The notes below the pieces were generated by a model, which had not been told where the DNA came from, searched no databases, and worked only from the letters and a program-made list of their open reading frames with translations. The position numbers and the translations under genes were made by a program. 51,941 nucleotides of DNA from Candidatus Cryptobacteroides intestinipullorum (lineage in GTDB: Bacteria; Bacteroidota; Bacteroidia; Bacteroidales; UBA932): positions 1 through 51,941 of the forward strand of contig DVIP01000028.1 in assembly GCA_018711225.1 (NCBI GenBank), given 5' to 3'. Of this stretch, positions 24,594 through 42,982 are shown piece after piece (within the stretch, counting starts at the first letter, position 1; each line of letters opens with the position of its first letter).

Positions 24594-26384
24594 TCAGGAA
24601 TTTAACGCATCATGTATCCTCTGCGCGAGTTCCATGCCCACAAGTCCGGCAAGGTCATCGACCGATGCGGAAGCGATGCGCGGGACACTTCCGTAATGGA
24701 GTATAAGTCTCTGTTCTGTCTTCTCTCCCACCCCTTTTATCTCTCGCAGGGCCGACTGTATCTGGGCCTTGCTTCTGAGATTCCTGTGATGTGTGATACC
24801 GAATCTGTGCGCCTCGTCCCTGATATGCTGCATCACTTTGAGGGCCTGCGAATTTCTGTCCAGGAACAGGGGATGAGGGTCCCCTATCCGTATGATTTCC
24901 TCAAACCTCTTGGCCAGGCCCACCACAGTAAGGCTTTCCGCAATGCCGAGCTCGCTAAGGGCTTCGTATGCACTGCCCAGCTGGCCCTTGCCCCCGTCTA
25001 TCACTATCAGCTGCGGAAGATCGTCCGGGTCCTCCCGGAGCATCCTGGAATACCTTCTGTTTACGATTTCCTTCATGGAGGCGAAGTCGTCCGGACCGAC
25101 GACAGTCTTGATATTGAAGTGACGGTAATCTTTCTTGGACGGCACTCCGTCACGGAAGACCACGCATGAAGCCACGGGATTTGTCCCCTGGATATTGGAG
25201 TTGTCGAAACACTCTATATGGACAGGAAGTTCCTTCATCCCCAAAGCCGTCTTCAGTTCCTCCAGGACCTTGCGCCGGAATTCGTCCGGGTCAGTGTGCT
25301 CCTGCTGTTTCAGGGCATTGAATCTCATTTCCTTCGCATTTTTCAAGCTGAGGTCCATCAGTGCCAGTTTGTCTCCCTTGACAGGAATCCTGAACTCCAC
25401 CCCGTCTATTTCCACATCGGGTCTGAAAGGCACCAGAACTTCTTCCGAAAGATTGCCGAATTTGGACTGTATCTCGCCTATGAACATCCCCAGCACTGAA
25501 GACTGGTCTTCTTCTATGTTCATCTTGAAGCCCAGATTAAGGGACTGGATGACCGCCCCGTCCCTGAGACGCATGAAATTTCCGAAAGCTTCGTTGGCAT
25601 CGAAAACCAGGGAGAACACATCCAGACTGCCTATGACCGGACTTACAATCAATGATTTCGCATAATGTTTTTCCAGCGAGGCCATCTTCTTCCTGTATTC
25701 TTCGGCAGCTTCGAAATCCAGCCGTCCGGCAGCTTCGTTCATCTGCTCCTTCAGATGCCGGATCATGTCGCGGCCCCCTCCTTTCAGAAGCCGGACCACC
25801 TCTTCTATATTGTCATTGTATTCCTTAACTGAAATGCCTCCCACGCAGCAGCCGCGGCACCTTCCTATATGGAAATTCAGGCACGGACGGAATTTCTTCC
25901 TCAACACGGCTTCACCGGTAATCTTCAGATTGCAGCTGCGCAGCGGATAAAGCTCGGAGAAAAGTTCCAGAAGATTCCTGGCATGCATCACCGAACTGTA
26001 CGGCCCGAAATATCTTGACCCGTCCCTGACCATGCGCCTGGTAAGGAAGACTTTGGGAAATTCGTCCGCACTGACACATATCCAGGGATAAGTCTTGGAG
26101 TCCTTGAGCAGGATATTGTATCTGGGCTTGTATTGCTTTATCAGATTGTTTTCCAGAAGGAGGGCATCGGCTTCCGAATCCACGACGGAATACTGGGCAT
26201 CGGCTATCTTGGACACCATTATGGCCGTCTTGCGGGTAAGCCTGTCCGGAGACACGAAATACTGCGCCACACGCTTGTGCAGGTCCTTGGCCTTGCCCAC
26301 ATATATGACATTGCCCCCGGCATCATAGTATCTGTAGACGCCGGGGCTATGAGGAAACAGCGATATTTTCTCCTTTACAGTCAA
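24594..26384 (-). CDS. uvrC: Excinuclease ABC subunit C (TTG start)
   Basis: LFPHSPGVYRYYDAGGNVIYVGKAKDLHKRVAQYF (GIY-YIG); CFDNSNIQGTNPVASCVVFRDG; IVIDGGKGQL; C-terminal HhH. Confidence 0.98.
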   Translation of the reverse strand: MTVKEKISLFPHSPGVYRYYDAGGNVIYVGKAKDLHKRVAQYFVSPDRLTRKTAIMVSKIADAQYSVVDSEADALLLENNLIKQYKPRYNILLKDSKTYPWICVSADEFPKVFLTRRMVRDGSRYFGPYSSVMHARNLLELFSELYPLRSCNLKITGEAVLRKKFRPCLNFHIGRCRGCCVGGISVKEYNDNIEEVVRLLKGGGRDMIRHLKEQMNEAAGRLDFEAAEEYRKKMASLEKHYAKSLIVSPVIGSLDVFSLVFDANEAFGNFMRLRDGAVIQSLNLGFKMNIEEDQSSVLGMFIGEIQSKFGNLSEEVLVPFRPDVEIDGVEFRIPVKGDKLALMDLSLKNAKEMRFNALKQQEHTDPDEFRRKVLEELKTALGMKELPVHIECFDNSNIQGTNPVASCVVFRDGVPSKKDYRHFNIKTVVGPDDFASMKEIVNRRYSRMLREDPDDLPQLIVIDGGKGQLGSAYEALSELGIAESLTVVGLAKRFEEIIRIGDPHPLFLDRNSQALKVMQHIRDEAHRFGITHHRNLRSKAQIQSALREIKGVGEKTEQRLILHYGSVPRIASASVDDLAGLVGMELAQRIHDALNS

Positions 26385-28624
26385 TCCAGTCCTATTTCAT
26401 CAAGGATATATCCCATGCCTGCATAATTCTCCAGAACCCAGAGGACATACCTGATATCCACACAGACACATTTCGTGTAGCCGTCCACATAATAGACGTC
26501 CGAAGCCAGGGATTCCTTGTTCCCGTCAAACGCGAGACCTATAAGTTCTCCCCTGGCATTCATCACGGGAGAACCGGAATTTCCGCCCGTAATATCATTG
26601 TCTGTCAGGAAGTTCACATACATTCTGCCGTCTTTTGCAGCCCAGCGGCCCCAGTCGCCTTTCTCCAGGAGGGCCTTCTGCCTGGAGTCGAGACTGAATT
26701 CGTATGACGAAGGGTCGTACTTCTCCAGAATGCCTGCAGAAGTGGAATGCCACGACCATTTCACTCCGTCGTACGGATCAATATCGCCTACCGTACCGTA
26801 TGTGATCCTCATAGTCGAATTGGCATCAGGATACTGTGCGAGTCCGTCTGCCAGAGACTTGCGGTATCTGGCATGGGTGTACTCCCTGTCAAGCGCCAAT
26901 ATGGTCGGAGTCCCTTCTATGGCGGACACACGCCTGTTCAGCGTGATTATTCTGACATCCTGGAAGAAACGGAACATCGGATCGGCGAAATACTCGTCCA
27001 GGGTATGTTCCTGCGTCACGAAAGCCTCCAGTTTAGCCCTGTCCGTCATGAAACTGTTCTCCCACAGCCAGTCCGTCATGGCGTCGAAGTCGCATTTTCC
27101 GTCGTCACCGGTATATTGCGCCAGCAGTTCTTTCTGGTACGGTCCGAGGACAGAACTGTCGATATTGGCATAATACTCGCGGACGGAGTATTTGAAAAGA
27201 TCCCTTTCCACTTCCGGAACTATCTTGTCATAATCATTCAGCAGGCTGGTCCTTATGGCGTTGTAGTCGCGGCCGCAGAACCTGAAACGGCGGCAGCATT
27301 CTATCTCCGTGGAATCAGGCCCGCCCTTGTCGATAAAGGTGTGCATCCTGATATGATTTTTGTTCAGGACTTCCCTTTTCAGCATGTTCAGCCGGGACAT
27401 CATCCTGGATATGGTCGTTCCGCGGACCAGAGTTTCCCTGTAATAGGTTATGTCTCTTTCGGCATCCTCCACTGCCGCATATTTTTCATTCAGAAGCGGG
27501 ATGATACTGCCCCACTCTGCCTTGCGGGCAGGGTCGGCATCTATCCAGGCCTGGAGTTCCTTTTCCTCCGCAGCCTTTTTCCCTACGACATCGAACCTCC
27601 GGATATTCTTCTCCTTGCCGCAGTTCAGCTCCTGGACATTGCTCAGTCCGAAATAATAGTCCGAATATTTGAGCCTTATGGACGGGTCGGTGTTCATCCA
27701 CCGGTTTATGATTTCCATCTGCTCGCCGCGGATTCTGTTGGAAACCGGAAGCGTCACTTTTTCATCGAAGTCCACCTCAGCGGAAGAACTGTATCTGTTC
27801 GTCCTGCCCGGATACCCTATCACCATGGTGAAGTCCCCCGGCTTGTAGCCCTCTGTGGAAACGCGCAGCCTGGCCTCCGGTTTCAGAGGAACATTGGCAT
27901 CGGAATAGTCCGCAGGTGTACCGTCCGGAGCGGTATATATCCTGTACATGGCGAAATCACACTTGTGCTGCGGCCATTCCCAGTTATCAATATCGCCTCC
28001 GTACGCGGAAATGGAAACCGGAGGGGCAGCCACAAGCCTGATGTCAGAATATACCTTGTAGAGCATCATGTAATATTTCTCTCCGCCCCACATCGAAGCC
28101 AGGGACGCTTCCAGACCGTCAGGATTGTCATTGTACTTCTTCTCCATAAGGAAGCTGACCTTTCGCATTCCGAACGGTTTTCCCTGTCTGGACAGTTCCT
28201 CCTGCATCTGAGCCACTTCGTCAGTAACGTCAAAAACCCTTTTCAGAAAATACATCTTCTTCCCGGGTATCGGAACTTCCTCGGCACGTGACATGGCCCA
28301 GAATCCTTCTTCCAGATAATTCTTTTCATCCGTACTCAGAGCGTGGACATCCCCGTAAGCGCAGTGATGGTTCGTAATCACCAGCCCTTCGCCGGAAATG
28401 ACACTTCCCGTACAGCCGAAATCCAGTGAGACCACGGCATCCGAAATCGTGGCGCCTTCCGCATCGGCATTGTAAATCTCGTTTGCAGAAAGCTTAAGGC
28501 CGCGCTTCTTCATCTGCTTCTCCAGAGCCTTGTCGATGCCGTTTATCATCCACATGCCTTCGTCCGCCCAAGACAACGGAGCCAGAAAGCAGCCTAAAGC
28601 CAGTATCAGAAATATTTTTTTCAT
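26381..28624 (-). CDS. S46 family serine dipeptidyl-peptidase (DPP7/DPP11-like)
   Basis: Signal MKKIFLILALGCFLAPLSWADEGMWMINGIDKALEKQMKKRGLKLS; VSLDFGCTGSVISGEGLVITNHHCAYG; NDITGGNSGSPVMNARGELIGLAFDGN. Confidence 0.95.
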   Translation of the reverse strand: MKKIFLILALGCFLAPLSWADEGMWMINGIDKALEKQMKKRGLKLSANEIYNADAEGATISDAVVSLDFGCTGSVISGEGLVITNHHCAYGDVHALSTDEKNYLEEGFWAMSRAEEVPIPGKKMYFLKRVFDVTDEVAQMQEELSRQGKPFGMRKVSFLMEKKYNDNPDGLEASLASMWGGEKYYMMLYKVYSDIRLVAAPPVSISAYGGDIDNWEWPQHKCDFAMYRIYTAPDGTPADYSDANVPLKPEARLRVSTEGYKPGDFTMVIGYPGRTNRYSSSAEVDFDEKVTLPVSNRIRGEQMEIINRWMNTDPSIRLKYSDYYFGLSNVQELNCGKEKNIRRFDVVGKKAAEEKELQAWIDADPARKAEWGSIIPLLNEKYAAVEDAERDITYYRETLVRGTTISRMMSRLNMLKREVLNKNHIRMHTFIDKGGPDSTEIECCRRFRFCGRDYNAIRTSLLNDYDKIVPEVERDLFKYSVREYYANIDSSVLGPYQKELLAQYTGDDGKCDFDAMTDWLWENSFMTDRAKLEAFVTQEHTLDEYFADPMFRFFQDVRIITLNRRVSAIEGTPTILALDREYTHARYRKSLADGLAQYPDANSTMRITYGTVGDIDPYDGVKWSWHSTSAGILEKYDPSSYEFSLDSRQKALLEKGDWGRWAAKDGRMYVNFLTDNDITGGNSGSPVMNARGELIGLAFDGNKESLASDVYYVDGYTKCVCVDIRYVLWVLENYAGMGYILDEIGLD

Positions 28625-28642
28625 ACTATATAAAATAAAATA

Positions 28643-28677
28643 CACCGGACCCGGTATGGAAAAAACCGGATCCGGTG
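28643..28677 (-). terminator. Terminator of the polyferredoxin gene
   Basis: CACCGGACCCGGT-N9-ACCGGATCCGGTG; the minus strand continues into TTTTATTTTATA. Confidence 0.75.
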
Positions 28678-28688
28678 CAATATACTAT

Positions 28689-30704
28689 TTATTTGTCAAA
28701 AGGCTTCACTACTCCTTTCTTCTCGAATCCGAGTTTGGCAGGAACTTCTCTCACATCATCCTTGGCGTATGTGATGGTCCAGTTTTCCATAGTCATCTGC
28801 TTCCAGAGCTCATCTTCGGTCATAGGAGCGGCATAGCGTATCCTGATAGCCGGCACGAGATCCTCGTTAAGATCGAGATATATGCCGATGATACTCTCGT
28901 TGCGGGAAAGATGGTTGCTGAGATACGGCATATTCCTGAGAATTATCGGTTTCTCATAATCCTGGTCGGCAATCTCGTAAATATACTGAGGCTGGTCCGC
29001 ATACTTCTCCACCCTGCTCTTGAACTCAGCCTTGAAAGGTGTGAAAAGCATCCTTATAAGGTCTTCCGTCGGGATATAGCTTACACTGTCCTCCATGTCC
29101 ACAAACTCGAAGTCCACCTCTGTGTCCTTCGTGCCGCCGCCGTGCACAGGCATTGAAAGGACCTTCATTTCCACCACATTCCTGAACCAGTCCTTGTCCA
29201 GGTTTTCTGAAGGGTCCACATACACGTGGACAATGAGCGGGCAGGCAAATTCGGAAGTCAGGCCGTAAATCTTCTTGCCTGTAAGTCTCATCTGGAGACC
29301 GAGATAGTTCAGGTCCAGTTTGTCATACATCTTTTCCGTCCTGATAGTAAGGACCTTCACACTGTCCGTTACGGCAGGGTCAGGGGTATTGACACGGAAT
29401 TTCGAAGGCACGTATATGTTTTCCTGGATCTGCTCAGGAGTGATTTCATCAGGATTGTATGTGATAATCACATAATGATGGTTCACGAATGTCTTCACAC
29501 CGTATACGCCGCGGATTTTTTCGAGCTTTGCCTTGAAAGCCATGGAGCTGCCATAACATTTCACCGAACGGAGTCCGTCTATCCTGATTTCTGCCAGAGA
29601 CTCAGGGTCAACAAGCTGCGTCACCGTGCCGTCCTCCGACACCTGTTCTATTCCCCACTGTTCGTCAATGGTAGGAAGTTCGAACCTGTTCCCTATCCAG
29701 ATGCCGAGGATGATAAGGATAACCGTCAGCAGTGCCGGGAGATATTTGCCGAAGCCGGATTTCTTTTTCTGGCAGGCCCCTATATGGAGGGCATTCGTAG
29801 GGCATGAGGCCACGCATTCTCCGCACAGGGTGCAGTCCACTGCGTCAAGCCGTCCGCCTGCAAGGTCGTCCACGTCTATGCCGTACGGGCAGTTCTTGTT
29901 ACAGATACCGCAATGCGTACATGAACCGGCGGTCTTGATGACATTCAGAATCTGGTACTTCGGCCTCCTGTTCAGAATTTCAAGCAGATAACCCATCAGG
30001 CAGAACAGTCCGAGAAGCACCCACCACGGAATATCTGCCCCGAGGATATCCAGAATCCACCAGATGCCGAAGAGGACAATGACCCATATCCAGAATTTCA
30101 GGGAATTGGATATGGCTCCGAGCGGACAGAGGTACTTGCACCAGAACATGTTTATGAAGAAACCGCCAAGGACCAGAAGAGCTATGGTCACAATGGACAT
30201 CCAGAGGGTTATTTCACCCTGGAATCCGGTAGCGGCAGCATAATAAGGGTCGAGATTCTTGCAGAAAAGTTCGCTGGCGGTAGCCGTCATATAGAATATC
30301 CAGAACACAAGGGCATATTTGAATATCCTGAGGACCGCATCGGCTGCGGAACCGTTTCTTACCGTTATCCCTTTAAAGCCGATACTATTGCGAAGTTTTA
30401 TCAGGAGATCCTGCACTGTCCCGAGAGGACAGATATAGCCGCAGAAAAGTTTGCTGAACAGCACGACAGCAGCCGCAAGCATGATTCCCATCATTATCTG
30501 GAGAGAACTCATGCTGCACGGCAGGGAGCCGTTAACGAAAAATGTTGTCAGAGCCTCGAGTCCGCCCATCGGGCAGTAAGCCTCCGGGTCGGCAGGTTCC
30601 TTGCTCGGGATTATTCCTGTCAGGAATACCACAAGGGCGACGAGCACTCCCCACTGAAGGAGATATTTCGGCCAGTTCTTGATGATGATTGATCTTTTTG
30701 CCAT
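28689..30704 (-). CDS. NapH-like membrane 4Fe-4S polyferredoxin with long extracytoplasmic C-terminal domain
   Basis: CGYICPLG and CKYLCPLG loops; CTHCGICNKNCP and CTLCGECVASCP clusters; TM near residue 320; then HMA-like IDGLRSVKCYGSSMAFKAKLEKIRGVYGVKTFVNHHYVIITYNPDEITPEQI. Confidence 0.85.
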   Translation of the reverse strand: MAKRSIIIKNWPKYLLQWGVLVALVVFLTGIIPSKEPADPEAYCPMGGLEALTTFFVNGSLPCSMSSLQIMMGIMLAAAVVLFSKLFCGYICPLGTVQDLLIKLRNSIGFKGITVRNGSAADAVLRIFKYALVFWIFYMTATASELFCKNLDPYYAAATGFQGEITLWMSIVTIALLVLGGFFINMFWCKYLCPLGAISNSLKFWIWVIVLFGIWWILDILGADIPWWVLLGLFCLMGYLLEILNRRPKYQILNVIKTAGSCTHCGICNKNCPYGIDVDDLAGGRLDAVDCTLCGECVASCPTNALHIGACQKKKSGFGKYLPALLTVILIILGIWIGNRFELPTIDEQWGIEQVSEDGTVTQLVDPESLAEIRIDGLRSVKCYGSSMAFKAKLEKIRGVYGVKTFVNHHYVIITYNPDEITPEQIQENIYVPSKFRVNTPDPAVTDSVKVLTIRTEKMYDKLDLNYLGLQMRLTGKKIYGLTSEFACPLIVHVYVDPSENLDKDWFRNVVEMKVLSMPVHGGGTKDTEVDFEFVDMEDSVSYIPTEDLIRMLFTPFKAEFKSRVEKYADQPQYIYEIADQDYEKPIILRNMPYLSNHLSRNESIIGIYLDLNEDLVPAIRIRYAAPMTEDELWKQMTMENWTITYAKDDVREVPAKLGFEKKGVVKPFDK

Positions 30705-30773
30705 AGTTCAGATATTAAAATTGTTATCGTTCTTTTCCCGAATTGTCCGCGGACTTGCATCCGGGCTGTTTTT

Positions 30774-33599
30774 CTATTCTTCCCGATATATAGTCACGAA
30801 CTTGTCCCCCTTATCCAGCCCGGACACGAACTTGCGTATGTCATCGGCGGTAATCCCCACGATGACTTCCTCATAATCGTAATCATGGGAGACGCCATAG
30901 CGTACGAAATCGCTGCATTCTCTCTTGCGTGCGGCGAGAGAATTCGCGGCCGCCGCATCTTTCTCCGCCCTGTGCTTGACAAGATATTTCTTCGCCTCGT
31001 CAAGTTCGGATTCATCCGGACCTTCCTCCGCCATCCTTGACATTCCGTCCTCAACATCCTTCACGAGCACGTCCACCATTTCCGGCCTGGTCTGGAAATC
31101 CACGAAGGATTCGAACATGCCGTTGTCGGAATAGTCCACTTCCGTACTGAAACTTACATGATAAGTACCGCCGCGGACCTCCCGGATCTGCTGGAGATAT
31201 CTGCCGGACATTATGTAGTCCAATATCTCGATGATGGCGAGATTCTTCGGATCGAGCCTTGTTTTTCCCTTGAAGCAGTACGAAACCTCTGCCTTGGGAA
31301 CTGTCTCCACATCATACGTGCGGTCAAGCACCACTTTCCCCCTGTATGCCGGTTCCGGAGCCGCCGTCCTTGAAAATTCCACGTCATATTCCCCGTCAAG
31401 CGAAGCCATGTATTTGCAGACGAGCGCCTCCACTTCCTCTTTCGGGAAATCACTGGCAATAAAGGCCGTCATGTGCCTGAAATCGCCGAAATTCCTGTGA
31501 TAGACATCCTTCACGAAATCCATGTCCGTCATCTCCACATCGGAACTGTCAATATCCGCCATCCACGGATGATTGCCGTATCTCAGAGCCCTGGCTTCCT
31601 TCTTGAACATGTCCGAATGGCTCTTTTTCTTGCCGAGGGAGCGGAGCTCGCCCTGTTTCAGCTTTTCCAGGTCGGCCGCCTCGGAGAAATACGGGTCGGA
31701 AAGCATCGCATGGACAAGCCTGAAACCTTTTTCCAGGCTCTTGCCGTCCGCAGTAACCGAAAGACTTGAATTTTTCTGTCCGAAATCCAGAGAAATATCG
31801 GCGCCGGAAAGATCCGGACTGTTGCGCAGGGTCGTGAAATCATATTTTCCGAAACCGGCATAACGCTGCATATAGGCAGAAGCCAGTCTGGCAGCCCGCA
31901 CCTTGTCTGAAGGGACAGCCCGGAGTCCCGTATCGAAATATACGGTCATCGACAGGTGTGTATTGGATTTCACCGGTCCGGACGGGATCCAGCAGACTCT
32001 GGCCCCGTTACTGAGAGTCCATTCCTCGCAATCTGTCCCTTTTACCGGTCTGACCTTGACGACAGTTCCCGGCCGTGGATCAGCCCCGAATTGTATCTTT
32101 TCATAACTGAGATATTCCGGCTGTATGTCTTCCGCCTCTGCTGCGGCGATTATCTCTTTCATCTCCGCCGCATCCGGCAGCCCTGCCTCTTCCTTTTCGT
32201 TCATGCACCAGGAATAGATTTTCCCGCTGTCCCGGAACATCTTCTGTTCATAACCCCTGACATCGTCGTATGAAAGGTTCCCGAGTATGATTTTCTGTTC
32301 TTCCTTCAGGTCATACGGGAATGCTGCGGTAAAACCTCTCAGGAAATTTTCCTTGCATGCGTCAACAATCTGCCGGTTCGTGACATCCGAGGCGAAATCC
32401 TCCATGTTCAGACGGTATTTTTTCATTATCTTGAACTTGGCAGCCTCGAACTCGTCCTCACTGATGCCGTAGCGGAGCATTCTCTGCACCTCTCTCGTAT
32501 AGAAGGCCAGCGCCGCCTCCGCATTGTCCGGGCCCTTCATTGACAGAGTAAAAAGCGATATATAGAAGTCATCGCTGTAAGGGTTGGTCACCAGGACAGC
32601 CGACGACACAGGACTGCCTTTCTTCCTGGCATCTTCCGACATTCTGTCTGCCAGGACGGACGTTATGATTTGTCTTGCATAAAGATCCTTGTAGAATGCG
32701 TCCGTATTTCTGATGTCACGTGCAGGGAACGGCTGCTTGTGAATGACTTTCAGGACATGGTATTTGACCTGCGGATCCAGCATGTTCTCGAACAGAGGTT
32801 CATCCAGGGCAGGTATCGGATATGTTTCCTTAGGGGCGGGATTCTCGCTCGCAGGAATGTCTGAAAACATCTTGCGGACCTTCTGCTCCATCATGTCAGC
32901 ATCGAAATCGCCCACAACGACGATTGCCTGAAGGTCCGGCCTGTACCATTTATGATAAAAGTCAAGTATCTCCTGCGGTTTGAAACCGTTTATGACTTCG
33001 AGTGTCCCGAGCACATTCCTCTGCGTGTGTTTCGCTCCCTTATAGACCAGACTGTTCTGCTTCTCCATCATCCTCATACGCGGTTCGTCCTTTCTGCGCC
33101 ATTCCTCGCTTATGACGCCGCGTTCCGCATCGAGGGCTTCCGGCTCGCAAGAGATGTCGCATGACCAGTCGTGCAGGACCATCAGAACCGAATCCACGAA
33201 GGAGTCACGGACAAGAGGCACTGAAGATATGTTGTAGACAGTCTCTGTCCTGTTGGTATAGGCGTTGACATTATAGCCGAACCTCACCCCGTCCTTCGCC
33301 AGAAATTCAAGGATTCCCTTGTCGGGATAATGGCGGGTGCCGTTGAAAGCCATGTGTTCAAGGAAATGGGCAAGGCCGTTCTGGTTGTCTTCTTCCTGCA
33401 GGGAGCCGACATTGTGTATGATATAGAAATCGGCGCATCCTTCCGGATTCCCGTTATGGCGGATATAATAGGTCATCCCGTTGTCCAGCCGTCCCCTGAT
33501 CAGCTGCGGGTCATCCGGGATAATCTCCTGTGCCCCGGCAGGAACGGTCATCAATACCGTAGAGACCGCCGAGAAAATAAATGTCAAAATCCTTTTCAT
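30774..33599 (-). CDS. M16 family zinc metallopeptidase (pitrilysin/insulinase-like), secreted
   Basis: Signal MKRILTFIFSAVSTVLMTVPAGAQ; inverted zinc motif HFLEH in GLAHFLEHMAFNGTRHYPDKG; ERGVISEEWR. Confidence 0.95.
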   Translation of the reverse strand: MKRILTFIFSAVSTVLMTVPAGAQEIIPDDPQLIRGRLDNGMTYYIRHNGNPEGCADFYIIHNVGSLQEEDNQNGLAHFLEHMAFNGTRHYPDKGILEFLAKDGVRFGYNVNAYTNRTETVYNISSVPLVRDSFVDSVLMVLHDWSCDISCEPEALDAERGVISEEWRRKDEPRMRMMEKQNSLVYKGAKHTQRNVLGTLEVINGFKPQEILDFYHKWYRPDLQAIVVVGDFDADMMEQKVRKMFSDIPASENPAPKETYPIPALDEPLFENMLDPQVKYHVLKVIHKQPFPARDIRNTDAFYKDLYARQIITSVLADRMSEDARKKGSPVSSAVLVTNPYSDDFYISLFTLSMKGPDNAEAALAFYTREVQRMLRYGISEDEFEAAKFKIMKKYRLNMEDFASDVTNRQIVDACKENFLRGFTAAFPYDLKEEQKIILGNLSYDDVRGYEQKMFRDSGKIYSWCMNEKEEAGLPDAAEMKEIIAAAEAEDIQPEYLSYEKIQFGADPRPGTVVKVRPVKGTDCEEWTLSNGARVCWIPSGPVKSNTHLSMTVYFDTGLRAVPSDKVRAARLASAYMQRYAGFGKYDFTTLRNSPDLSGADISLDFGQKNSSLSVTADGKSLEKGFRLVHAMLSDPYFSEAADLEKLKQGELRSLGKKKSHSDMFKKEARALRYGNHPWMADIDSSDVEMTDMDFVKDVYHRNFGDFRHMTAFIASDFPKEEVEALVCKYMASLDGEYDVEFSRTAAPEPAYRGKVVLDRTYDVETVPKAEVSYCFKGKTRLDPKNLAIIEILDYIMSGRYLQQIREVRGGTYHVSFSTEVDYSDNGMFESFVDFQTRPEMVDVLVKDVEDGMSRMAEEGPDESELDEAKKYLVKHRAEKDAAAANSLAARKRECSDFVRYGVSHDYDYEEVIVGITADDIRKFVSGLDKGDKFVTIYREE

Positions 33600-33667
33600 T
33601 GTCACTGTACTCCTTAATACCTTTTCCGGACCGTGCCGGAATGTTCTGTTTCACGTTCTGCTCTACG

Positions 33668-33694
33668 TTCTGCCGGATTTGCAATCCGGCAGAA
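33668..33694. repeat. 27-bp REP-like palindrome
   Basis: TTCTGCCGGATT-TGC-AATCCGGCAGAA, same 12+3+12 geometry as the copy at 24104-24130. Confidence 0.8.
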
Positions 33695-33697
33695 CTG

Positions 33698-35311
33698 TCA
33701 GAATGCGCATCCGACAGATACCGTAAACACATTCCTGTAACCGTCCGCCAGAAATTCAGGTTTTTCCAATGTATGCCTGTATGTGTCGCGGACATCTATA
33801 TATGCCGAAATCTTCTTGAAAAGACGGGTATATCTGAATCCCAGTGTCCCTCCGACTCTCGAAGCCGTATCATATTCGAAATCCCTGTTCAGGTAAGTGT
33901 CGTTTGTCCTGTGGTTGTCTGACGAAGTTGAAGCATAAACTCCGTCTCTGTTCCTGGTCCCGAAACCCGTGAAGAAATCCGCTGCCAGACTTACCGTAAA
34001 TATGTTCCTAGCGACTGTAATGTTTTTCCTGCCATGAAGATTCACTTCAATGTCCGTTATTTCCTGCTCGCGGTAATAAGGATAGTAGGTAGCTCTGAAT
34101 ATCCGATAGGAACCATCCGCCGACACGCCATATTCCCACGAAGGACGATAACCGCTGACACCAAGATACCCGTCATAAGCCAGGCCGCCGTCAAATCCGA
34201 CGGAACGGTATATTTCATTCTGCCCGAAATATTCCACTACTGTATTGCCCCCGGGATTGGTGGTCCTCCTGTATATGTTCTCATTATTGACCAGCCCCGA
34301 ATATCCCGCATCAAGCGATATCCTGTGAATATTATCCTGACTGCGGATATCCAAAATACCGCTGTACCCTACACTGCTGCCTCCAAACTCACAATACACG
34401 GCCTCATTTGAAGATCTTTCACCATAGTGCCCGTCCCGGTACTTGTAAGACAATTCATTGAAAAAACGGACATTGTTTTCTCTGCCGAACACCAGCTGCA
34501 GGGAACCTCCATAGAACGTATTTATCATCGGCCGACCCGGAGAAGTCGTCTTTACATAGCCATAATCACCGTCAAGGCCCTCTACCATTCCCAGGTATCC
34601 GCCGTAATCCACGAAAGTATAATACTGCTGGTCAGTCGTGCCGAAAATACTGCAGTCCAGATTCTCGCTCGTCCTTATGTACTGCAGCCCCAGACCGAAG
34701 GAAAAATTGTCGGCAGGAGCATATCTGACACCTGCCGTCATGTCCAGAGACATCCAGCGGCTTCTGGGTCTTGGGTCCTTGCGCTTAGCATAGTCCCCTG
34801 TTTCATAGGCAAACTGCACCCCCAGAGACCATTTGCTATCCAACGCATACGACATGGCCCCCAAAAGAGAATACAATTCCTTCACCTTGATGCCCGGATT
34901 GTCACTTGTACTTTCAAGGAAATTTATAGGATTATAGGAAGGATCCATAAGATAATGCCCGTTCATATTCTTTCCCTGGAAATAAGAATAAGAAAGTTTT
35001 CCATGGAACGCAATCCTGTCAGAAATCCGGACATAGGATTCTGTCAGGGCGCCTGCCTCAAGGCTGTTGTCCGACCCTTCCACAGGAATCAGACCTCCGT
35101 CATCCTTGTCGAAATAAGCCTCTACAAAAGATGTCCGCGGCACCTGCAAAGTTCCAAGACCTGCGGCATTGTCAGAAATCAGCCACGGATTTGTATTCCT
35201 TATGAACTCGAATTCATACGCACTTCCCGGATTTTCCTGTCCGAAAACACTCAGACAGCCAAAAGCCAGAGAAGAAACTATTGTATATATCCTGTATCTG
35301 CACATAATCAC
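33698..35311 (-). CDS. DUF6850-type outer membrane beta-barrel protein
   Basis: Signal peptide (IYTIVSSLAFGCLSVFGQ), FIRNTNPWLISDNAAGLG, aromatic beta-strand repeats, terminal ...YRNVFTVSVGCAF. Confidence 0.75.
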   Translation of the reverse strand: MIMCRYRIYTIVSSLAFGCLSVFGQENPGSAYEFEFIRNTNPWLISDNAAGLGTLQVPRTSFVEAYFDKDDGGLIPVEGSDNSLEAGALTESYVRISDRIAFHGKLSYSYFQGKNMNGHYLMDPSYNPINFLESTSDNPGIKVKELYSLLGAMSYALDSKWSLGVQFAYETGDYAKRKDPRPRSRWMSLDMTAGVRYAPADNFSFGLGLQYIRTSENLDCSIFGTTDQQYYTFVDYGGYLGMVEGLDGDYGYVKTTSPGRPMINTFYGGSLQLVFGRENNVRFFNELSYKYRDGHYGERSSNEAVYCEFGGSSVGYSGILDIRSQDNIHRISLDAGYSGLVNNENIYRRTTNPGGNTVVEYFGQNEIYRSVGFDGGLAYDGYLGVSGYRPSWEYGVSADGSYRIFRATYYPYYREQEITDIEVNLHGRKNITVARNIFTVSLAADFFTGFGTRNRDGVYASTSSDNHRTNDTYLNRDFEYDTASRVGGTLGFRYTRLFKKISAYIDVRDTYRHTLEKPEFLADGYRNVFTVSVGCAF

Positions 35312-35323
35312 GGACTTTTTAGG

Positions 35324-36631
35324 TTACTTCAATGAAGATATTCTTCTCTGATGGAAATCCGCAGAGGAATTGTTGGTTTTCATATAAACTATATGTGCCC
35401 CGTTGGCTATGGAAGCCTCGGCATCTATGCCTGACGGATCAGTCGTCCCGTAAGTCTGGTCATAGCCGTCCGTTCCTCCGTCATAATCGTAGACCAGTTT
35501 GCCCTCGTTTTCCGGCAGGGCTTCGGTAGCATTCTTGTCCACATTGCGGTACAAAGTATAGCCGCGATCTGCCGTATGGTAAATATACCCTGCATCAATA
35601 TCCGAAGTGAGCCTCTTGTTGTTGCTGGATTCATATCCTCCCCGGAAAACGTCTATACCGTCCAGAACCCATTCCCTGCTCACTTTTACGACAGGGAGGT
35701 TAGTACTTTCCGTCCTGTCATAGTTCGTGTCATCCATCGAATATTCCTCTATCCCGTCGTATTCAAGGATATAGAAAGCCGGACTCGTATTTGAAAGCGG
35801 CCAGGCATTGCCCTGTCCGTACAGATATGTCTGCAGATAATGCGACGGATCTATCCTGTCAGACGGATTCGGATAAAATGTAGTGTTGTATTTTTCTCCG
35901 TAAGCCTCCGGATCATACATCGCATAATATGACGCATCACTGAGATCTACGGAATTTGTATAAGTCTCCGAATGATTGATAGCCCCGTTGATAGCCACCA
36001 CTATCTGCGAATACGCAGGCAGTGAAACCTCTGTATTGAACCACCATATATTCCATCCGGCCGGAATCCAGCCTTCGGCATCATAGAGCAGGCTGCCATC
36101 CCGCAACCATCTGTTTCCGGCATTGCTGTTTGCCGGAGTGCAGAACGCAAAGGCCACGTCGCTGATATCCATATCCTCCGCGGAATTATTGTACAATATC
36201 ACATATTTGTCATAATTGTATGTACCGCTTCCGTCGTTATTCTGGCAGCCGCCAATATAAAGTTCCTTTATTACAAGATTACTGGCAAAAGTCCTGGTCA
36301 ATTCCATTTCCATACGGTTGTCCCCTCCGTCAGAAACAACGAACTGGGTATTCAGCCCGTAAATATAATCACTGTCCTTGAACGAAACCGTCGCATTGTA
36401 CAGTCCCGGCATAAGGGAAAACTCAGCGATCCCGGCCTCGGTATCTGCCTGGTAAGACACCGAATTGTTCTGAGTGGAGACAGTCAGCGTAACACCATCC
36501 ACCGCATATACTTCGCCGCCGCTTGTTAACACAAGACTGACATCGACGGATGTAATGCCTGGAGTAATCTCACATGCGGGGAAAACAAGTGAAACTGCGG
36601 CAAGGCATGAATATATGAGAAACTTTTTCAT
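35324..36631 (-). CDS. DUF4876 domain-containing lipoprotein
   Basis: Lipobox MKKFLIYSCLAAVSLVFPAC; NLVIKELYIGGCQNNDGSGTYNYDKYVILYNNSAEDMDISDVAFAF...WNIWWFNTEVSLPAYSQIVVAINGAINHS. Confidence 0.8.
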   Translation of the reverse strand: MKKFLIYSCLAAVSLVFPACEITPGITSVDVSLVLTSGGEVYAVDGVTLTVSTQNNSVSYQADTEAGIAEFSLMPGLYNATVSFKDSDYIYGLNTQFVVSDGGDNRMEMELTRTFASNLVIKELYIGGCQNNDGSGTYNYDKYVILYNNSAEDMDISDVAFAFCTPANSNAGNRWLRDGSLLYDAEGWIPAGWNIWWFNTEVSLPAYSQIVVAINGAINHSETYTNSVDLSDASYYAMYDPEAYGEKYNTTFYPNPSDRIDPSHYLQTYLYGQGNAWPLSNTSPAFYILEYDGIEEYSMDDTNYDRTESTNLPVVKVSREWVLDGIDVFRGGYESSNNKRLTSDIDAGYIYHTADRGYTLYRNVDKNATEALPENEGKLVYDYDGGTDGYDQTYGTTDPSGIDAEASIANGAHIVYMKTNNSSADFHQRRISSLK

Positions 36632-36651
36632 TTGTCTATATGTCATTTCGT

Positions 36652-39639
36652 CTAAAATTTGAGCCTCAATGTCAGCCCGTAATAGAAATTCGTTATATAG
36701 TCTGTCGCCGAAACGTAGTCCCCCGTCCTGGTGGAACGGATCCGGCTGAAATTGTTGAAGAAATTGTTCGCATAAAATGAAACCGATGCAATGTCCCCGA
36801 TTTCCTTTGTCACACTGAAGTTCATAGAAAAATACGGTGTGAGCAGGTCCTTGTTGTAATAATAGTCCAGGCTCGTGCTATATGCCAGGCGCGCCAGGTC
36901 GGAATACCGCTGTGTATTGCCGGTGCGTCTGGCCTGCTGCAGGTCCTCATAAAAATTCCTCAACGTCGTAGGATCATCGTAAGTCGTATAATATTCCGGA
37001 TATACGACCGAATAGCCGTTTCCGTCATATATGGATCCGTCCGTAACGGAAAGTATATCCGCCCCGTCAGACAGTACTAGAGAACGGTCGCCATCGCTCT
37101 TTCCGCTGAGAAAACGGGAATATTTATACAACGTGGCTTCCAGCCTCAGAGAAACAATCATCCTGACTTTGGGGATATTGGTGGTAATAGTCAGATTCGT
37201 ATTCAACTGGCTGTTCTCCCTTCCGTTGGAAAGCGACCTGCCTCCGACATAATAACCTATATACTTGTAAGGTTCACCGTCAGCCCCGGTACCATTGTAG
37301 CTGTAGGCCTCGATATTTTCATCAAGGGAATGATACCCGTAAAAGGATCCGTCCAGACGGATAGTAGTGTTTATCGGCTGGATTCTTTTGAAATCCACGA
37401 CCCATTCCAGACCGTAACGCGTGATGGGATTGACATTGTTGTTTGCATAAGTCAACTCATTGAAGCGCTTCCTTTCACTATATGCCAGCGTGACATCCTC
37501 GCTTGCACCGGTCACGTCCGACACGGTTACAATACCCGTATTCCTGTCCACTGTGAAACGTCTGTTTTCAGCAGGAATAGGACATGCATTCAAAGACTCT
37601 ATAGAGGTATAGTTGTATGTGAACCTTTCATAATCATTGCTGAGCCTGTATGCATCCAATGTCCTGTTGTAATACGCAGCCAGCGATATCTTGTTTCCGG
37701 CAAGATCTATGTCAAAGCCGATTTCAGCCTGCTGGTTCTTCTGCCAGCGCAGTTCAGGATTGTACGCTATGGTCTGCGGTATTATATAGTAGGCGGAATA
37801 GGCTGACCCGTCCGCGGAAGATGTCGAGGTAAAAGTATTGAGATAGGTATATGTAGGGACAGGATACAGGATGGAATACGACGGCAGCTTGGCCGCCACA
37901 CCCCAGCTTGCCCGGAACGACAGTTCTCGGACAGTCTTGTTCCACCTGTTTTTCGGAGACAGGATAGTATATTTCAGATTGAACCGTGGAGAAAGTCCCG
38001 ATGTAGTACCGTATGCCGAGTTCCTTATGATTGTATTGTCATTCCTGAGACCTGCAATGATATTGAGCCTGGTCTCTCCTATGGGAATCGTTATGTTTTC
38101 TTCAATATAAGCAGCCACATTGTTCATGAACGGCACATCACAATAACGGTATTCCCAGAAATCGGGAGCCGTCGACATGTTTTCCGTATACTGGCCGATA
38201 CCGAAATTGCCGTCTCCTGACCAGTCCAAACCGACTTTGAGCTTATTGTTTATATCTCCGAACTGCCGTGCCCAGTTGGCCTTCAGTTTCAGACTGTAGC
38301 TGACAGGGCGGTCATCCACGCACATTGTGCTGTACCAATACCCTCTCGGCCTGAGGATTACCGCCGCATCCGGATTCTCATCATAATACTGGGCCACATA
38401 GTACCCTTCTTCCGTACCATGAATTGCAGGAGAGTCCTGCGCCCAGTCCACATTCTGATGTTCCCGGCTATGTTTGTCGCTATAAACGACAGAACCGCTC
38501 AGTTCCACATTAGTAATCCATTTCTTGCTCAGCAGCCAGTCGAAATCGAAATTCCCCCTGAAGGAATTGTCCCTTACCGTAGTCCTGTTTTCCGAAAAGG
38601 CATCGGGGTCAGCCTTGGTATCCATACCTCCCAGATTCCCGGAAGCGCTTATGGAAAACCGCAGGGGCGTTTCGCTGAGAATCCCGCGGTCGAAAAGGTT
38701 GCTGTACGTAAGCTGTACCTGCTTCCTGTCGTATGATTCGTACGGAGACCGCTGGTCACTTGTAGCCCTCGTGTATTCCAGACTCGCGTTCAGAATCCCT
38801 TTTGAAGCCCCTCTTTTGGTCTCGCCGAGTCCGAAGCCCTTGCTGGCGGAAACCTGCTTCATGTTAGGGTTGGTGGACATGGTTATTATATAAGGTGTCC
38901 GGCCCTTGCGTGTGTTTATCTTTACGACTCCGGAAGTCATGTCCCCGTATTCTACTGAAGGGACTCCTGTTATAACTTCAATAGATTCCACATTCGTAGA
39001 TGCGACATTGTTCACGGCAGCGCCTGAAACTCCAGCCGTACTGAATGATGCGAAACTTCCGTTGTTGGAAAGACGGACTCCGTCGACCTCCACGGCTGTA
39101 CCGAAAGACACGTTTCCTGTTTCTCCGCTGTCTCCTGAACGGATATTGAATATCTGGTCGCTCAGAAGATCCGGATTCCTGGTCGCTCCGCCCGGAAGCA
39201 GACTGGTGGCATCCGCGACATTGAGCATCTGGATATGGTCAAGAGCGGTCTTGTCTATGGTGCGGCTTGTCGTAGCACTGTTGCTGTTGTCCTGAGCGGT
39301 TACGACCACGCTTTCGAGTGTCAGGTTATCCTCGGCAAGATAAATCAGATATTTCGGGATATCCTTGGTTATCACAATCTCTTTCGTATCTGTAACGAAG
39401 CCGAGGCATGATATGCTTATAGTATTCTTGCCCGGCTGTATGTTCTGAATCGTGAAGTTTCCGTTGGCATCTGCCACAGCCCACTGTTCTGTCGCAGTAA
39501 GGACTACGGTAGCATAATCCACCGGCTTGCCCGTGTCCTTGTTCAGGACAACACCGCTGATACTGTATGTGGTCCGGTCCTGGGCATTTGAAACCATGAA
39601 CACGGAGAAAAGGATAAAACCCAAAAAGAACCTTTTCAT
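36652..39639 (-). CDS. TonB-dependent outer membrane receptor with N-terminal carboxypeptidase-regulatory-like domain
   Basis: SISGVVLNKDTGKPVDYATVVLTATEQWAVADANGNFTIQNIQPG; plug IEVITGVPSVEYGDMTSGVVKINTRKG; C-terminal NFYYGLTLRLKF. Confidence 0.95.
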   Translation of the reverse strand: MKRFFLGFILFSVFMVSNAQDRTTYSISGVVLNKDTGKPVDYATVVLTATEQWAVADANGNFTIQNIQPGKNTISISCLGFVTDTKEIVITKDIPKYLIYLAEDNLTLESVVVTAQDNSNSATTSRTIDKTALDHIQMLNVADATSLLPGGATRNPDLLSDQIFNIRSGDSGETGNVSFGTAVEVDGVRLSNNGSFASFSTAGVSGAAVNNVASTNVESIEVITGVPSVEYGDMTSGVVKINTRKGRTPYIITMSTNPNMKQVSASKGFGLGETKRGASKGILNASLEYTRATSDQRSPYESYDRKQVQLTYSNLFDRGILSETPLRFSISASGNLGGMDTKADPDAFSENRTTVRDNSFRGNFDFDWLLSKKWITNVELSGSVVYSDKHSREHQNVDWAQDSPAIHGTEEGYYVAQYYDENPDAAVILRPRGYWYSTMCVDDRPVSYSLKLKANWARQFGDINNKLKVGLDWSGDGNFGIGQYTENMSTAPDFWEYRYCDVPFMNNVAAYIEENITIPIGETRLNIIAGLRNDNTIIRNSAYGTTSGLSPRFNLKYTILSPKNRWNKTVRELSFRASWGVAAKLPSYSILYPVPTYTYLNTFTSTSSADGSAYSAYYIIPQTIAYNPELRWQKNQQAEIGFDIDLAGNKISLAAYYNRTLDAYRLSNDYERFTYNYTSIESLNACPIPAENRRFTVDRNTGIVTVSDVTGASEDVTLAYSERKRFNELTYANNNVNPITRYGLEWVVDFKRIQPINTTIRLDGSFYGYHSLDENIEAYSYNGTGADGEPYKYIGYYVGGRSLSNGRENSQLNTNLTITTNIPKVRMIVSLRLEATLYKYSRFLSGKSDGDRSLVLSDGADILSVTDGSIYDGNGYSVVYPEYYTTYDDPTTLRNFYEDLQQARRTGNTQRYSDLARLAYSTSLDYYYNKDLLTPYFSMNFSVTKEIGDIASVSFYANNFFNNFSRIRSTRTGDYVSATDYITNFYYGLTLRLKF

Positions 39640-39924
39640 AACGGGGGAGTTTGTATCGTTCAGTTGACGAATATACATAAAAAATATGATAGAGTATCAC
39701 CGGTGCCATGTAATTATTTGCGCATATCCGCTATATATGAAACTTATGAAATGAAACGCTCCGGCAGGTTACATTTTCATACGGGAAAGTGCCGGAACAG
39801 GAAAAACAGTAAGCGCAAAAATTTATGGACGGAAAAAAGCCGCGATATGCGATGCAACGATTCTGTTTTTTTATGTATCTTTATATCGTTATGTTAAATA
39901 TATAAACAACTAAACAAATTGGTT

Positions 39925-40896
39925 ATGAAAAAGATTTATTCAATCATGATTGCAGCTGCCGTTGCTTTTGCATTTACAAGCTGCGAAGAAACTACTCCTG
40001 ACAACGGTACAGACGGAACCGAGCAGGGAGGGGGGGGAGAAGGAACCGATGAACCTGGAGATGATACCGAAGAGCCGGGTGGCGAGCCTGAAGATCCTAA
40101 TACGCTTACGTATGGCGGAGTTACTTACAAGACTGTCACGCTTTCCAACGGGCAGACATGGATGGCGGAACCTTTGAGGTATATTCCGGACGGGATGACT
40201 GCTTCCAGCGATCCTGCCGATGATAATGCGCATATTTGGTATCCTTATGAAGTTGTTGACGGGACGGCTACAGCACAGACCGACGAGGACGCCATTGCAG
40301 AAAAAGGCTATCTGTATGACATGTACGCCATGCTTGGAGGAGTGGAAATCACCCCGGAAAACTGCATGAATTTCGAAGGGGCTCAAGGTATTTGCCCTGA
40401 CGGATGGCATATCCCGACTTGGGAAGAATATTTCCTTTTATGCGGTAAATCCAATAAAATGGAAAACGGCAACGGTGCGTCATCAAATACTGAAGCACTG
40501 TTCTATGATGCCGAATACGACGGGGCAAAGATAGCTTCATTCAATGACGCGGGATGGAACTTCATTCAGTCCGGAATCCGGATGAAAGCCAACTATTCCG
40601 GAACAGGATCCTATAATACCCAGCTCACTGAAGCTCTCGGCACGGATGAAGACGGGAAGGTGACAGGCAACTGCTCTGTAGAGGAATTTCTTGGGAAAGC
40701 AAGGATGACATACGTAGCTTCATCAACCTGCAATGCGGCCAACTACAGTTCTTCGGATCCTACCGTTTTGAACCACATTCAGTTCATGTCTCTGATGACG
40801 ACATTCACTTCGACATATCCTGAAGGAAGACTGACGCTGTCTTTTGCCCATTGCGAAATGGGTCAGCAGCTCCGCTGCATCAAGGATGCCGAATAA
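39925..40896 (+). CDS. FISUMP-domain lipoprotein (Fibrobacter succinogenes major paralogous domain)
   Basis: Lipobox MKKIYSIMIAAAVAFAFTSC; Gly/Glu/Asp-rich linker; YGGVTYKTVTLSNGQTWMAEPLRYIPDG; GYLYDMYAMLGG; GICPDGWHIPTWEEYFLL. Confidence 0.85.
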   Translation: MKKIYSIMIAAAVAFAFTSCEETTPDNGTDGTEQGGGGEGTDEPGDDTEEPGGEPEDPNTLTYGGVTYKTVTLSNGQTWMAEPLRYIPDGMTASSDPADDNAHIWYPYEVVDGTATAQTDEDAIAEKGYLYDMYAMLGGVEITPENCMNFEGAQGICPDGWHIPTWEEYFLLCGKSNKMENGNGASSNTEALFYDAEYDGAKIASFNDAGWNFIQSGIRMKANYSGTGSYNTQLTEALGTDEDGKVTGNCSVEEFLGKARMTYVASSTCNAANYSSSDPTVLNHIQFMSLMTTFTSTYPEGRLTLSFAHCEMGQQLRCIKDAE

Positions 40897-40998: not shown

Positions 40999-42792
40999 TT
41001 ACCGACACTCAAGGACATCTCCATGGTCCCGCACCACGGCTTCTTTCCACTTTTCCGTATAGCCCGGGTTCGTAATGCCGTCCGGAATCCTGTCTGAATA
41101 GCCGTTGGTAACGAACGAACCGTCAGGATTCTGCGCCTTCACGTTTCCGTCCATGAATTTCAACAGCAAGAAAGTCTCCAATGCCGTCCATTCCTCGAAA
41201 ATCCCCTGTGCGGTCTCCACCGAATAATCGGTAAGAAAATCCTTGACCTCCACGAACGGATCAACGACCTTTGCAGCTTCATCATTCCTCCTTATCTGCC
41301 GTTTCGGGATATCCAGAGCCTTCTGGTAAAGATCCAGTGCATGGCTGTCAATATCAGGAATCACTGCCATCTGGCCTTTTTCGAAACTGTCAGCCTTTTC
41401 ACGCACCACAGGAGCCATGATATTATACATCCTGTAACATGAATTGGCCACCCTGTTGCAAATCCAGAATGCCGAAGTAGGTGAATATTCGAGCATACTG
41501 CCATTGCCCTCGGCAAAACATTCCGGGACTTTCGTGATATTGGTATATATCGGTGTGAGATATGATGTAGCGGCGTCATCAGTACCGAACCACAGAAGTC
41601 CTCCTATGACATCCGGAAGCCAGCCACGTGATTGTCCGACAAACCAGAAACCGGTCTGCTGCGTGGCGATAGCCCTTTCATTGACATACAATTGTCCTTC
41701 ATATTCGAAGTCCATCGGCCTCCAACGGTACGGAAGCGCGTTGCCCCCGGCTCCTATATCTGTCGTCATATCCATCGGAGTGCCTTCGAAATGATCCCTC
41801 ATCACATCTGCCACATCCTTTACGGTAAGCTTGCGTTCCGGTCTGACAAACAGCGGGAAACGTTTGGAGACATCGTACCCCATAGCATAATCAATATAGT
41901 CGTATGAATTCCTGGTGACAAGGTTCCCGTTTTCGTCTTCGAATGTGAACTGTCCGTCACACAATATGTTGAACGCTGCCCACGCCCGGGCCTCGCAGCC
42001 TCTCATCGAACCGAAATTCAGCGGATTATATGCGTCACAAAAACTGAAATCTTCGTCCCTGCCGTCGAAATAGCCCATTTCCCTGGCAAATGAAATCACA
42101 TCCGGAGAATAGAGGCAGTTTTCCGGATCATCCAGAGGAAACGTACTTATCCTGGACTGGTTCGCATGTGCGCAGATATAGCCGTCAGGCAGTCTCCGGG
42201 CCACCCAAACAATACCCTTGCGTGCATTGCCGTCTTCAGATGCTCTGAATCCCTTTCCGATAAGTTCCATGACCCAGACCTCATCCTTGTCCGCTATCGA
42301 GAATGATTCTCCTGAAGAACAATAACCGTACGTATTGGCCAGATCCACTATGATATCTATAGCCTCCCTGGCTGTCCTGGCCCTCTGCAGGGCAACATAT
42401 ATCAATGAGCCGTAATCCATTATACCGGTAGAGTCATAAAGTTCGGGACGGCCTCCGAACGTGGATTCCCCTATTATGAGCTGGTGTTCGTTCATGTTGC
42501 CTACGGTCTGGTATGTATGGCGCACCTGTGGTATCTGACCGAGGTATTTCCCGGTGTCCCATTCGCGGACATCAAGCATGGCACCTTCCGGCCAGTCAGC
42601 GGCAGGACGGAAATACAGTTCTCCGAACAGTGTATGCGAGTCCGCAGCGTAGGAAATCATGCACGATCCATCCGCGCTTGCCCCTTTGGAGACGAGGATA
42701 TTTGTACATGCGTCAGCTTCCGGAACAGACGGAAGGCAAAGCAGTCCGGCTGTCAGACAAGCCGTCAATTTGGTTGAGGATGTGAATTTCAT
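40999..42792 (-). CDS. C69-family dipeptidase (PepD-like), secreted
   Basis: Signal MKFTSSTKLTACLTAGLLCLPSVPEADA followed by N-terminal-nucleophile-type CTNILVSKGASADGS; GESTFGGRPEL. Confidence 0.9.
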   Translation of the reverse strand: MKFTSSTKLTACLTAGLLCLPSVPEADACTNILVSKGASADGSCMISYAADSHTLFGELYFRPAADWPEGAMLDVREWDTGKYLGQIPQVRHTYQTVGNMNEHQLIIGESTFGGRPELYDSTGIMDYGSLIYVALQRARTAREAIDIIVDLANTYGYCSSGESFSIADKDEVWVMELIGKGFRASEDGNARKGIVWVARRLPDGYICAHANQSRISTFPLDDPENCLYSPDVISFAREMGYFDGRDEDFSFCDAYNPLNFGSMRGCEARAWAAFNILCDGQFTFEDENGNLVTRNSYDYIDYAMGYDVSKRFPLFVRPERKLTVKDVADVMRDHFEGTPMDMTTDIGAGGNALPYRWRPMDFEYEGQLYVNERAIATQQTGFWFVGQSRGWLPDVIGGLLWFGTDDAATSYLTPIYTNITKVPECFAEGNGSMLEYSPTSAFWICNRVANSCYRMYNIMAPVVREKADSFEKGQMAVIPDIDSHALDLYQKALDIPKRQIRRNDEAAKVVDPFVEVKDFLTDYSVETAQGIFEEWTALETFLLLKFMDGNVKAQNPDGSFVTNGYSDRIPDGITNPGYTEKWKEAVVRDHGDVLECR

Positions 42793-42982
42793 GTATGTCA
42801 ATAATTTTGTTTGTTACCGGTTTCGCAAGTCAGGAGGCACAGAACCCCCATGACGGGTACAAATTTAAAAAATATTCCGCTCAGACTCCAAGACTTCCCA
42901 TCTGCCCGATCATATTCTTCTGACAATTAAACAATATCGGCAAAAATCCGCCACCCTGCCGGTCAATGAGACGTTAAGCGTT

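Follow-up and report, generated by a model that had tools for sequence, protein, structure and literature searches.

In a 2023 transcriptome study that starved P. gingivalis and B. thetaiotaomicron of iron, the genes PG1019-22 of P. gingivalis, a conserved outer-membrane transport locus, were up 20.8- to 214.5-fold, with counterparts in B. thetaiotaomicron (BT1938-39) and P. intermedia (PIN17_RS07775-90) (PMC10434189). Under iron limitation, expression in B. thetaiotaomicron rose 3.5- to 7.4-fold for BT1933-39 (encoding a HEAT protein, DUF4876 and a receptor, among others) and 38- to 128-fold for BT3625-33 (DUF4857, ABC, PepSY, DUF4876 and receptor proteins) (PMC10434189), and a DUF4876 gene of P. 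gingivalis ranks among the top responders to haemin supply or limitation (PMC10470040). Two further systems enter the comparison, namely protease-associated import by Fus and by YddB/PqqL of E. coli, where a receptor is paired with a periplasmic M16 peptidase made under iron limitation (PMC6793856), and XusABC, which consists of a receptor, a surface lipoprotein and a PepSY reductase, with a hydrolase in one species (PMC13142918).

The window analysed here is a 51,941-nucleotide stretch of DNA from Candidatus Cryptobacteroides intestinipullorum. Its minus strand carries, from 28689 to 39678, a run of genes for a TonB-dependent receptor, a DUF4876 lipoprotein, a DUF6850 barrel, an M16 peptidase and a polyferredoxin, all supported by Pfam matches. 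The receptor gene stands beside DUF4876, as it does in the iron-responsive loci PG1019-22, BT1933-39, BT3625-33 and PIN17_RS07775-90, and in almost every homologous locus inspected DUF6850 adjoins DUF4876; by gene content (DUF4876 beside a receptor, with DUF6850), the window locus belongs to the DUF4876/TonB-receptor family. The label "uncharacterised", given to it in a sequence-only reading of the window, is too strong, since the core has already been reported as a conserved iron-responsive outer-membrane transport locus, if one with no known ligand (PMC10434189). The published iron-responsive loci are annotated with a HEAT protein (BT1933-39) or with ABC, DUF4857 and PepSY proteins (BT3625-33), and not with M16, S46 or polyferredoxin. 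The novel feature is that the DUF4876/DUF6850 core has an exchangeable back end, either ABC/DUF4857 or peptidases. Our main reading, to which we assign a probability of roughly 0.5, is that the locus serves iron acquisition, as an operon of a family widespread in Bacteroidales whose front end is fixed and whose back ends are exchangeable, and that it handles a peptide- or protein-bound ligand. The iron role of the core is moderately supported by the published expression data from other species; Fur boxes showed no excess over shuffled sequences upstream of 84 receptors, where the local Fur motif may differ.

Like XusABC, the window locus brings a receptor and a membrane redox protein together in an operon with a lipoprotein that is probably surface-exposed, whereas it has DUF4876 in place of DUF4374, a polyferredoxin in place of PepSY, peptidases in place of an esterase, and an extra DUF6850 protein. 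With neither a DUF4374 lipoprotein nor a PepSY protein among the genes scanned, it does not qualify as a XusABC system. The likeness to Fus/PqqL lies in a receptor gene next to one for a secreted, single-chain M16 peptidase whose zinc motif is intact, and in iron-responsive relatives; the DUF4876 lipoprotein, the second barrel and the polyferredoxin, however, have no counterpart in Fus.

Genes of the run and their neighbours

The open reading frame of the receptor (36652..39678, minus strand; 1008 aa; Pfam Plug, TonB_dep_Rec_b-barrel and CarbopepD_reg_2, the last corresponding to a CarbopepD_reg-like extension) opens at 39678, and the ATG at 39639, which fits the signal peptide better, is the likely start. 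In a one-sequence phmmer search, which leaves a distant tie possible, the receptor matched no solved chain at E <= 0.001. Assignment to a classical SusCD polysaccharide utilisation locus was rejected, as the receptor scores 64 bits against a cut-off of 368 with the SusC/RagA NCBIfam model and has no SusD partner; the earlier statement that the run contains neither SusD nor a glycosidase holds. Elsewhere in the same genome (contig C131, 545-13957), a run of genes encodes proteins of 1017 aa, 468 aa, 393 aa (lipoprotein-like) and 1245 aa (M16), sizes that suggest a SusCD-type pair plus M16, a possible second protease-linked uptake locus.

The DUF4876 gene (35324..36646, minus strand) gives a match that is well above the threshold but weak for its family (PF16215, 57.1 bits with a cut-off of 27.9, compared with roughly 100-250 bits in most other loci). 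Its lipobox cysteine, Cys25, is invariant in an alignment of 17 sequences and is followed by acidic residues in most relatives. Acidic residues behind the lipobox cysteine fit surface export in Bacteroidota, and the lipoprotein is probably surface-exposed; its one solved homologue, 4q1z, is titled just "putative lipoprotein". The DUF6850 gene (33698..35311, minus strand) matches the whole of PF21012 (178.9 bits), and an AlphaFold model of its product with barrel strands throughout (pLDDT 85.7, pTM 0.83) predicts an outer-membrane barrel with good confidence. A Foldseek search with this model returned generic barrels only, with TM-scores of at most 0.46 and no close solved relative, and a DUF6850 profile found no match among solved structures.

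The M16 gene (30774..33605, minus strand; 943 aa; Pfam M16 and M16_C) encodes a secreted single-chain metallopeptidase with an intact HFLEH zinc motif and matches 9ldy, PqqL (6ofs) and FusC (6b03) over its full length. The window thus has a FusC/PqqL-type single-chain M16 gene by a receptor gene, although an unlinked M16 paralogue on contig C143 of the same genome is closer to PqqL and 9ldy, and the M16 type is common in this genome. Since the unlinked paralogue matches better, the likeness of the locus M16 to PqqL and FusC carries little weight. The receptor showed no tie to the FusA/YddB family at the sensitivity used, and membership in Fus by way of the M16 peptidase was rejected on these two grounds.

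The polyferredoxin gene (28689..30704, minus strand; two Fer4_5 and one Fer4 match) encodes a membrane protein with two CX3CP motifs, two 4Fe-4S motifs and further invariant cysteines at 44, 63 and 148 in an alignment of 13 sequences. It resembles NapH and CcoG in the CX3CP motifs of its membrane part and in its two 4Fe-4S motifs, whereas it falls far below the curated NCBIfam cut-offs of both (53 vs 213 bits for NapH/MauN and 26 vs 317 bits for CcoG) and differs in its HMA-like domain and long C-terminal region. An AlphaFold model of the polyferredoxin (six sequences) had a pLDDT of 45 and was not used. The proposed HMA-like periplasmic domain was recovered in part: it matches HMA below threshold (16.6 bits, cut-off 24.8) and has weak matches to copper ATPases, but in the alignment of 13 it lacks the CXXC metal motif and carries a single invariant cysteine (K-C-x-G-S) instead. 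The domain might bind metal, and the locus could then serve in the acquisition of copper or another metal, with a copper-peptide complex being imported and the polyferredoxin reducing its Cu(II) and binding or handing on the Cu(I). Along with the weak copper ATPase matches, such a role would agree with the CX3CP architecture common to the polyferredoxin and CcoG, a putative copper reductase, and with the receptor/PepSY copper pair of Bordetella (PMC13038864). Given the lone invariant cysteine and the published response of homologous core loci to iron or haemin limitation (PMC10434189, PMC10470040), we regard a copper role as quite improbable.

Gaps of 5 bp (or 23 bp, depending on the start), 12, 92 and 69 bp separate the five genes, in line with the short gaps and the five gene identities of the sequence-only reading (the HMA-like part being sub-threshold). 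That reading had also placed a terminator ahead of an S46 dipeptidyl-peptidase. A hairpin with a T-rich tail does lie at the junction (28641..28678, minus strand), upstream of a DPP7-like S46 gene (26381..28645, minus strand; PF10459, 641 bits), and possibly acts as a partial terminator or attenuator. It is not conserved in loci L002, L004 and L009; the polyferredoxin and S46 genes of L002 share 4 nt, and the genes from M16 to S46 in L009 are spaced 2 bp apart each. Because of this overlap and these 2-bp gaps, S46 counts as part of the unit, even though the window has a hairpin ahead of it. On the other side of the run lies a C69 peptidase gene (40999..42801, minus strand; PF03577, 280 bits), with a divergent FISUMP-domain lipoprotein-like gene (39919-40896, plus strand) between it and the receptor. 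The C69 gene sits directly upstream of the receptor, 22-261 bp away, in L003-L006, and on account of this position the C69 peptidase is probably a further cluster member. L002, L003 and L004 also have FISUMP-related genes close to the cluster, in varying positions and strands.

Conserved core and exchangeable back ends

Relatives of the locus were collected in a scan of a genome collection with the DUF4876 protein of the window, which gave 27 loci, and in an order-wide sample of 295 genomes spread over the order, of which 48 have DUF4876; modules were counted in a set of 88 loci and scored within 8 kb of the core. The receptor is present beside DUF4876 in 87 of the 88 loci. DUF4876 lies within 4 kb of 58 of the 60 strong DUF6850 genes and, conversely, DUF6850 within 4 kb of 61 of the 68 DUF4876 genes. 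The full order receptor-DUF4876-DUF6850-M16-polyferredoxin-S46 is kept in six loci (L002-L005, L009 and L088, the last from the same genus), all with S46 adjoining the polyferredoxin cluster, whereas S46 stands directly behind DUF6850 in L008, L013-L015 and L017. Gene order is thus conserved far beyond chance, and the absence of conserved co-occurrence, which would have told against the locus as a unit, was not what the gene neighbourhoods revealed. The five genes do not, however, form the unit as had been claimed: the conserved unit is receptor-DUF4876-DUF6850, nearly fixed, and the peptidases with the polyferredoxin make up one back end among several that can replace each other. In the Prevotellaceae loci L018, L020-L024 and L026, a DUF4876-like open reading frame of about 130 aa and a gene for a 170-aa protein with a weak match to the Por secretion tail are found between receptor and DUF4876, possibly a split DUF4876 and a secreted protein.

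An ABC ATPase together with a DUF4857 protein occurs within 8 kb of the core in 31 of the 88 loci, usually with a small membrane-protein-like product (c5); a small lipoprotein and a PepSY protein are frequent companions. Peptidases (single-chain M16, S46 or a HEAT-repeat protein) without the ABC module are found in 43 of the 88, and the two kinds of back end meet in a single locus (Fisher p = 1.8e-11 for all loci and p = 2.6e-6 for the order-wide set, relatedness being ignored). Judged from published annotations and not from sequence, BT1933-39 resembles the HEAT-type loci and BT3625-33 the ABC-type loci (e.g. L029), which places both kinds of back end among the iron-responsive genes. By annotation, likewise not by sequence, PIOMA14_I_1877-79 of P. 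intermedia (a receptor and a "peptidase", 9- to 72-fold up under iron limitation; PMC10434189) could be a Prevotella receptor/M16 version.

At least two and probably three unrelated peptidase families recur at the core, the third being the HEAT-repeat protein (c11). This protein has no match in Pfam or among solved structures; its H-G and D-A-C positions, invariant across 15 sequences, suggest a clan CD cysteine peptidase, an assignment made by eye. The c11 proteins (L051:5713-7908 and 14 others), with up to three tandem copies behind DUF6850, may represent an unrecognised family of that clan.

Among the 34 polyferredoxin genes of the order sample, 10, in 10 genomes, lie within 12 kb of DUF4876, and the two families occur together in 13 of 32 genomes (p = 0.0004, relatedness ignored). 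The other 24 are away from DUF4876, mostly alone or in mixed contexts, and the polyferredoxin family therefore also works outside DUF4876 loci. The polyferredoxin is found with either type of back end and in none of the 88 loci with a PepSY protein, a pattern that fits substitution of one for the other and is not significant (p = 0.12). In one locus without DUF4876 (L109:6114-10831), a polyferredoxin gene is followed directly by genes for an ABC ATPase, a small protein and DUF4857.

The neighbours of the core could also be chance or lineage-inherited housekeeping genes, with receptor-DUF4876-DUF6850 as the only functional unit. Module labels are indeed clustered on the receptor tree (FastTree), the tree-corrected exclusivity test points in the right direction with a median p of 0.25 and too few pairs, and M16 paralogues and stand-alone polyferredoxins exist. 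Yet at least 9 label changes are needed on starred branches, and within each of the genomes G165, G166, G277 and G106, core copies carry different modules; because these genomes hold both kinds, relatedness alone is unlikely as the cause of exclusivity. The overlaps or few-base gaps in L002 and L009 also speak against mere neighbourhood, as does the comparison set of 25 loci around polyferredoxins away from DUF4876, of which just one (L089) has M16 and S46 and none the HEAT protein. A core acting alone is thus rather unlikely. In L089 itself (G224:C1:2108000-2127700, from a genome of the same family), the genes for polyferredoxin, S46 and M16 are grouped at a distance of about 17 kb from a DUF4876 locus, which looks as if the back end might exist as an independent unit.

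Another possibility is peptide scavenging for carbon and nitrogen, whereby the receptor and lipoprotein would import oligopeptides for digestion by M16, S46 and C69, next to an unrelated polyferredoxin. The presence of three peptidase families within or next to the cluster is consistent with such a function, as are the polyferredoxins that often stand alone elsewhere, and S46 enzymes of Bacteroidota are peptide-feeding enzymes. However, non-peptidase back ends occur at the same core in 30 of the 88 loci, homologous core loci respond strongly to iron, and linkage of the polyferredoxin to DUF4876 exceeds chance, which makes peptide feeding an unlikely purpose of the locus.

How the proposed iron-acquisition operon may work

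For the preferred reading, an iron-acquisition operon, we propose a working model in which ligand entry, proteolysis and reduction are drawn by analogy with Xus and Fus/PqqL. The DUF4876 lipoprotein would capture an iron-bearing ligand at the cell surface and hand it to the TonB-dependent receptor; for the protease version, iron or haem bound to a peptide or protein is the likeliest ligand. The M16 peptidase would open this ligand in the periplasm, and the S46 and C69 peptidases would finish the peptides. The membrane polyferredoxin would supply electrons by which the iron is reduced and released, and the iron could then pass to an inner-membrane importer such as FeoB, which is present in the source genome. 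The DUF6850 barrel may be a second outer-membrane pore, perhaps the exit for spent ligand. Here we infer the type of ligand, the periplasmic proteolysis, the direction of electron flow, the role of DUF6850 and the regulation by iron in this organism. The idea first suggested from the window alone, that a peptide-bound metal or haem-like ligand is taken up and reduced, gains from the conserved co-occurrence and from the iron or haemin response of homologous loci, whereas the peptide ligand and the reduction stay at the level of proposals.

A bolder version, which we put forward tentatively and consider doubtful, holds that the core is a general outer-membrane platform whose periplasmic half has alternated repeatedly between an ABC/PepSY module and proteases of unrelated kinds, and that its protease version is an independent counterpart of Fus in Bacteroidota, importing an iron-bearing polypeptide, with a polyferredoxin replacing the haem-based PepSY reductase.

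In Bacteroidales of mouth and gut, DUF4876 loci belong to the genes with the strongest iron induction, and still have no known ligand. The exchangeable back ends lead to the prediction that copies bearing peptidases take up a ligand that needs proteolysis, and copies with ABC/PepSY a ligand that needs reduction only, which is testable in one strain because both types are present, by annotation, as one copy each in B. thetaiotaomicron. Should the polyferredoxin prove to be a metal reductase, the PepSY ferric reductases, which are haem-based, would gain an iron-sulphur counterpart.
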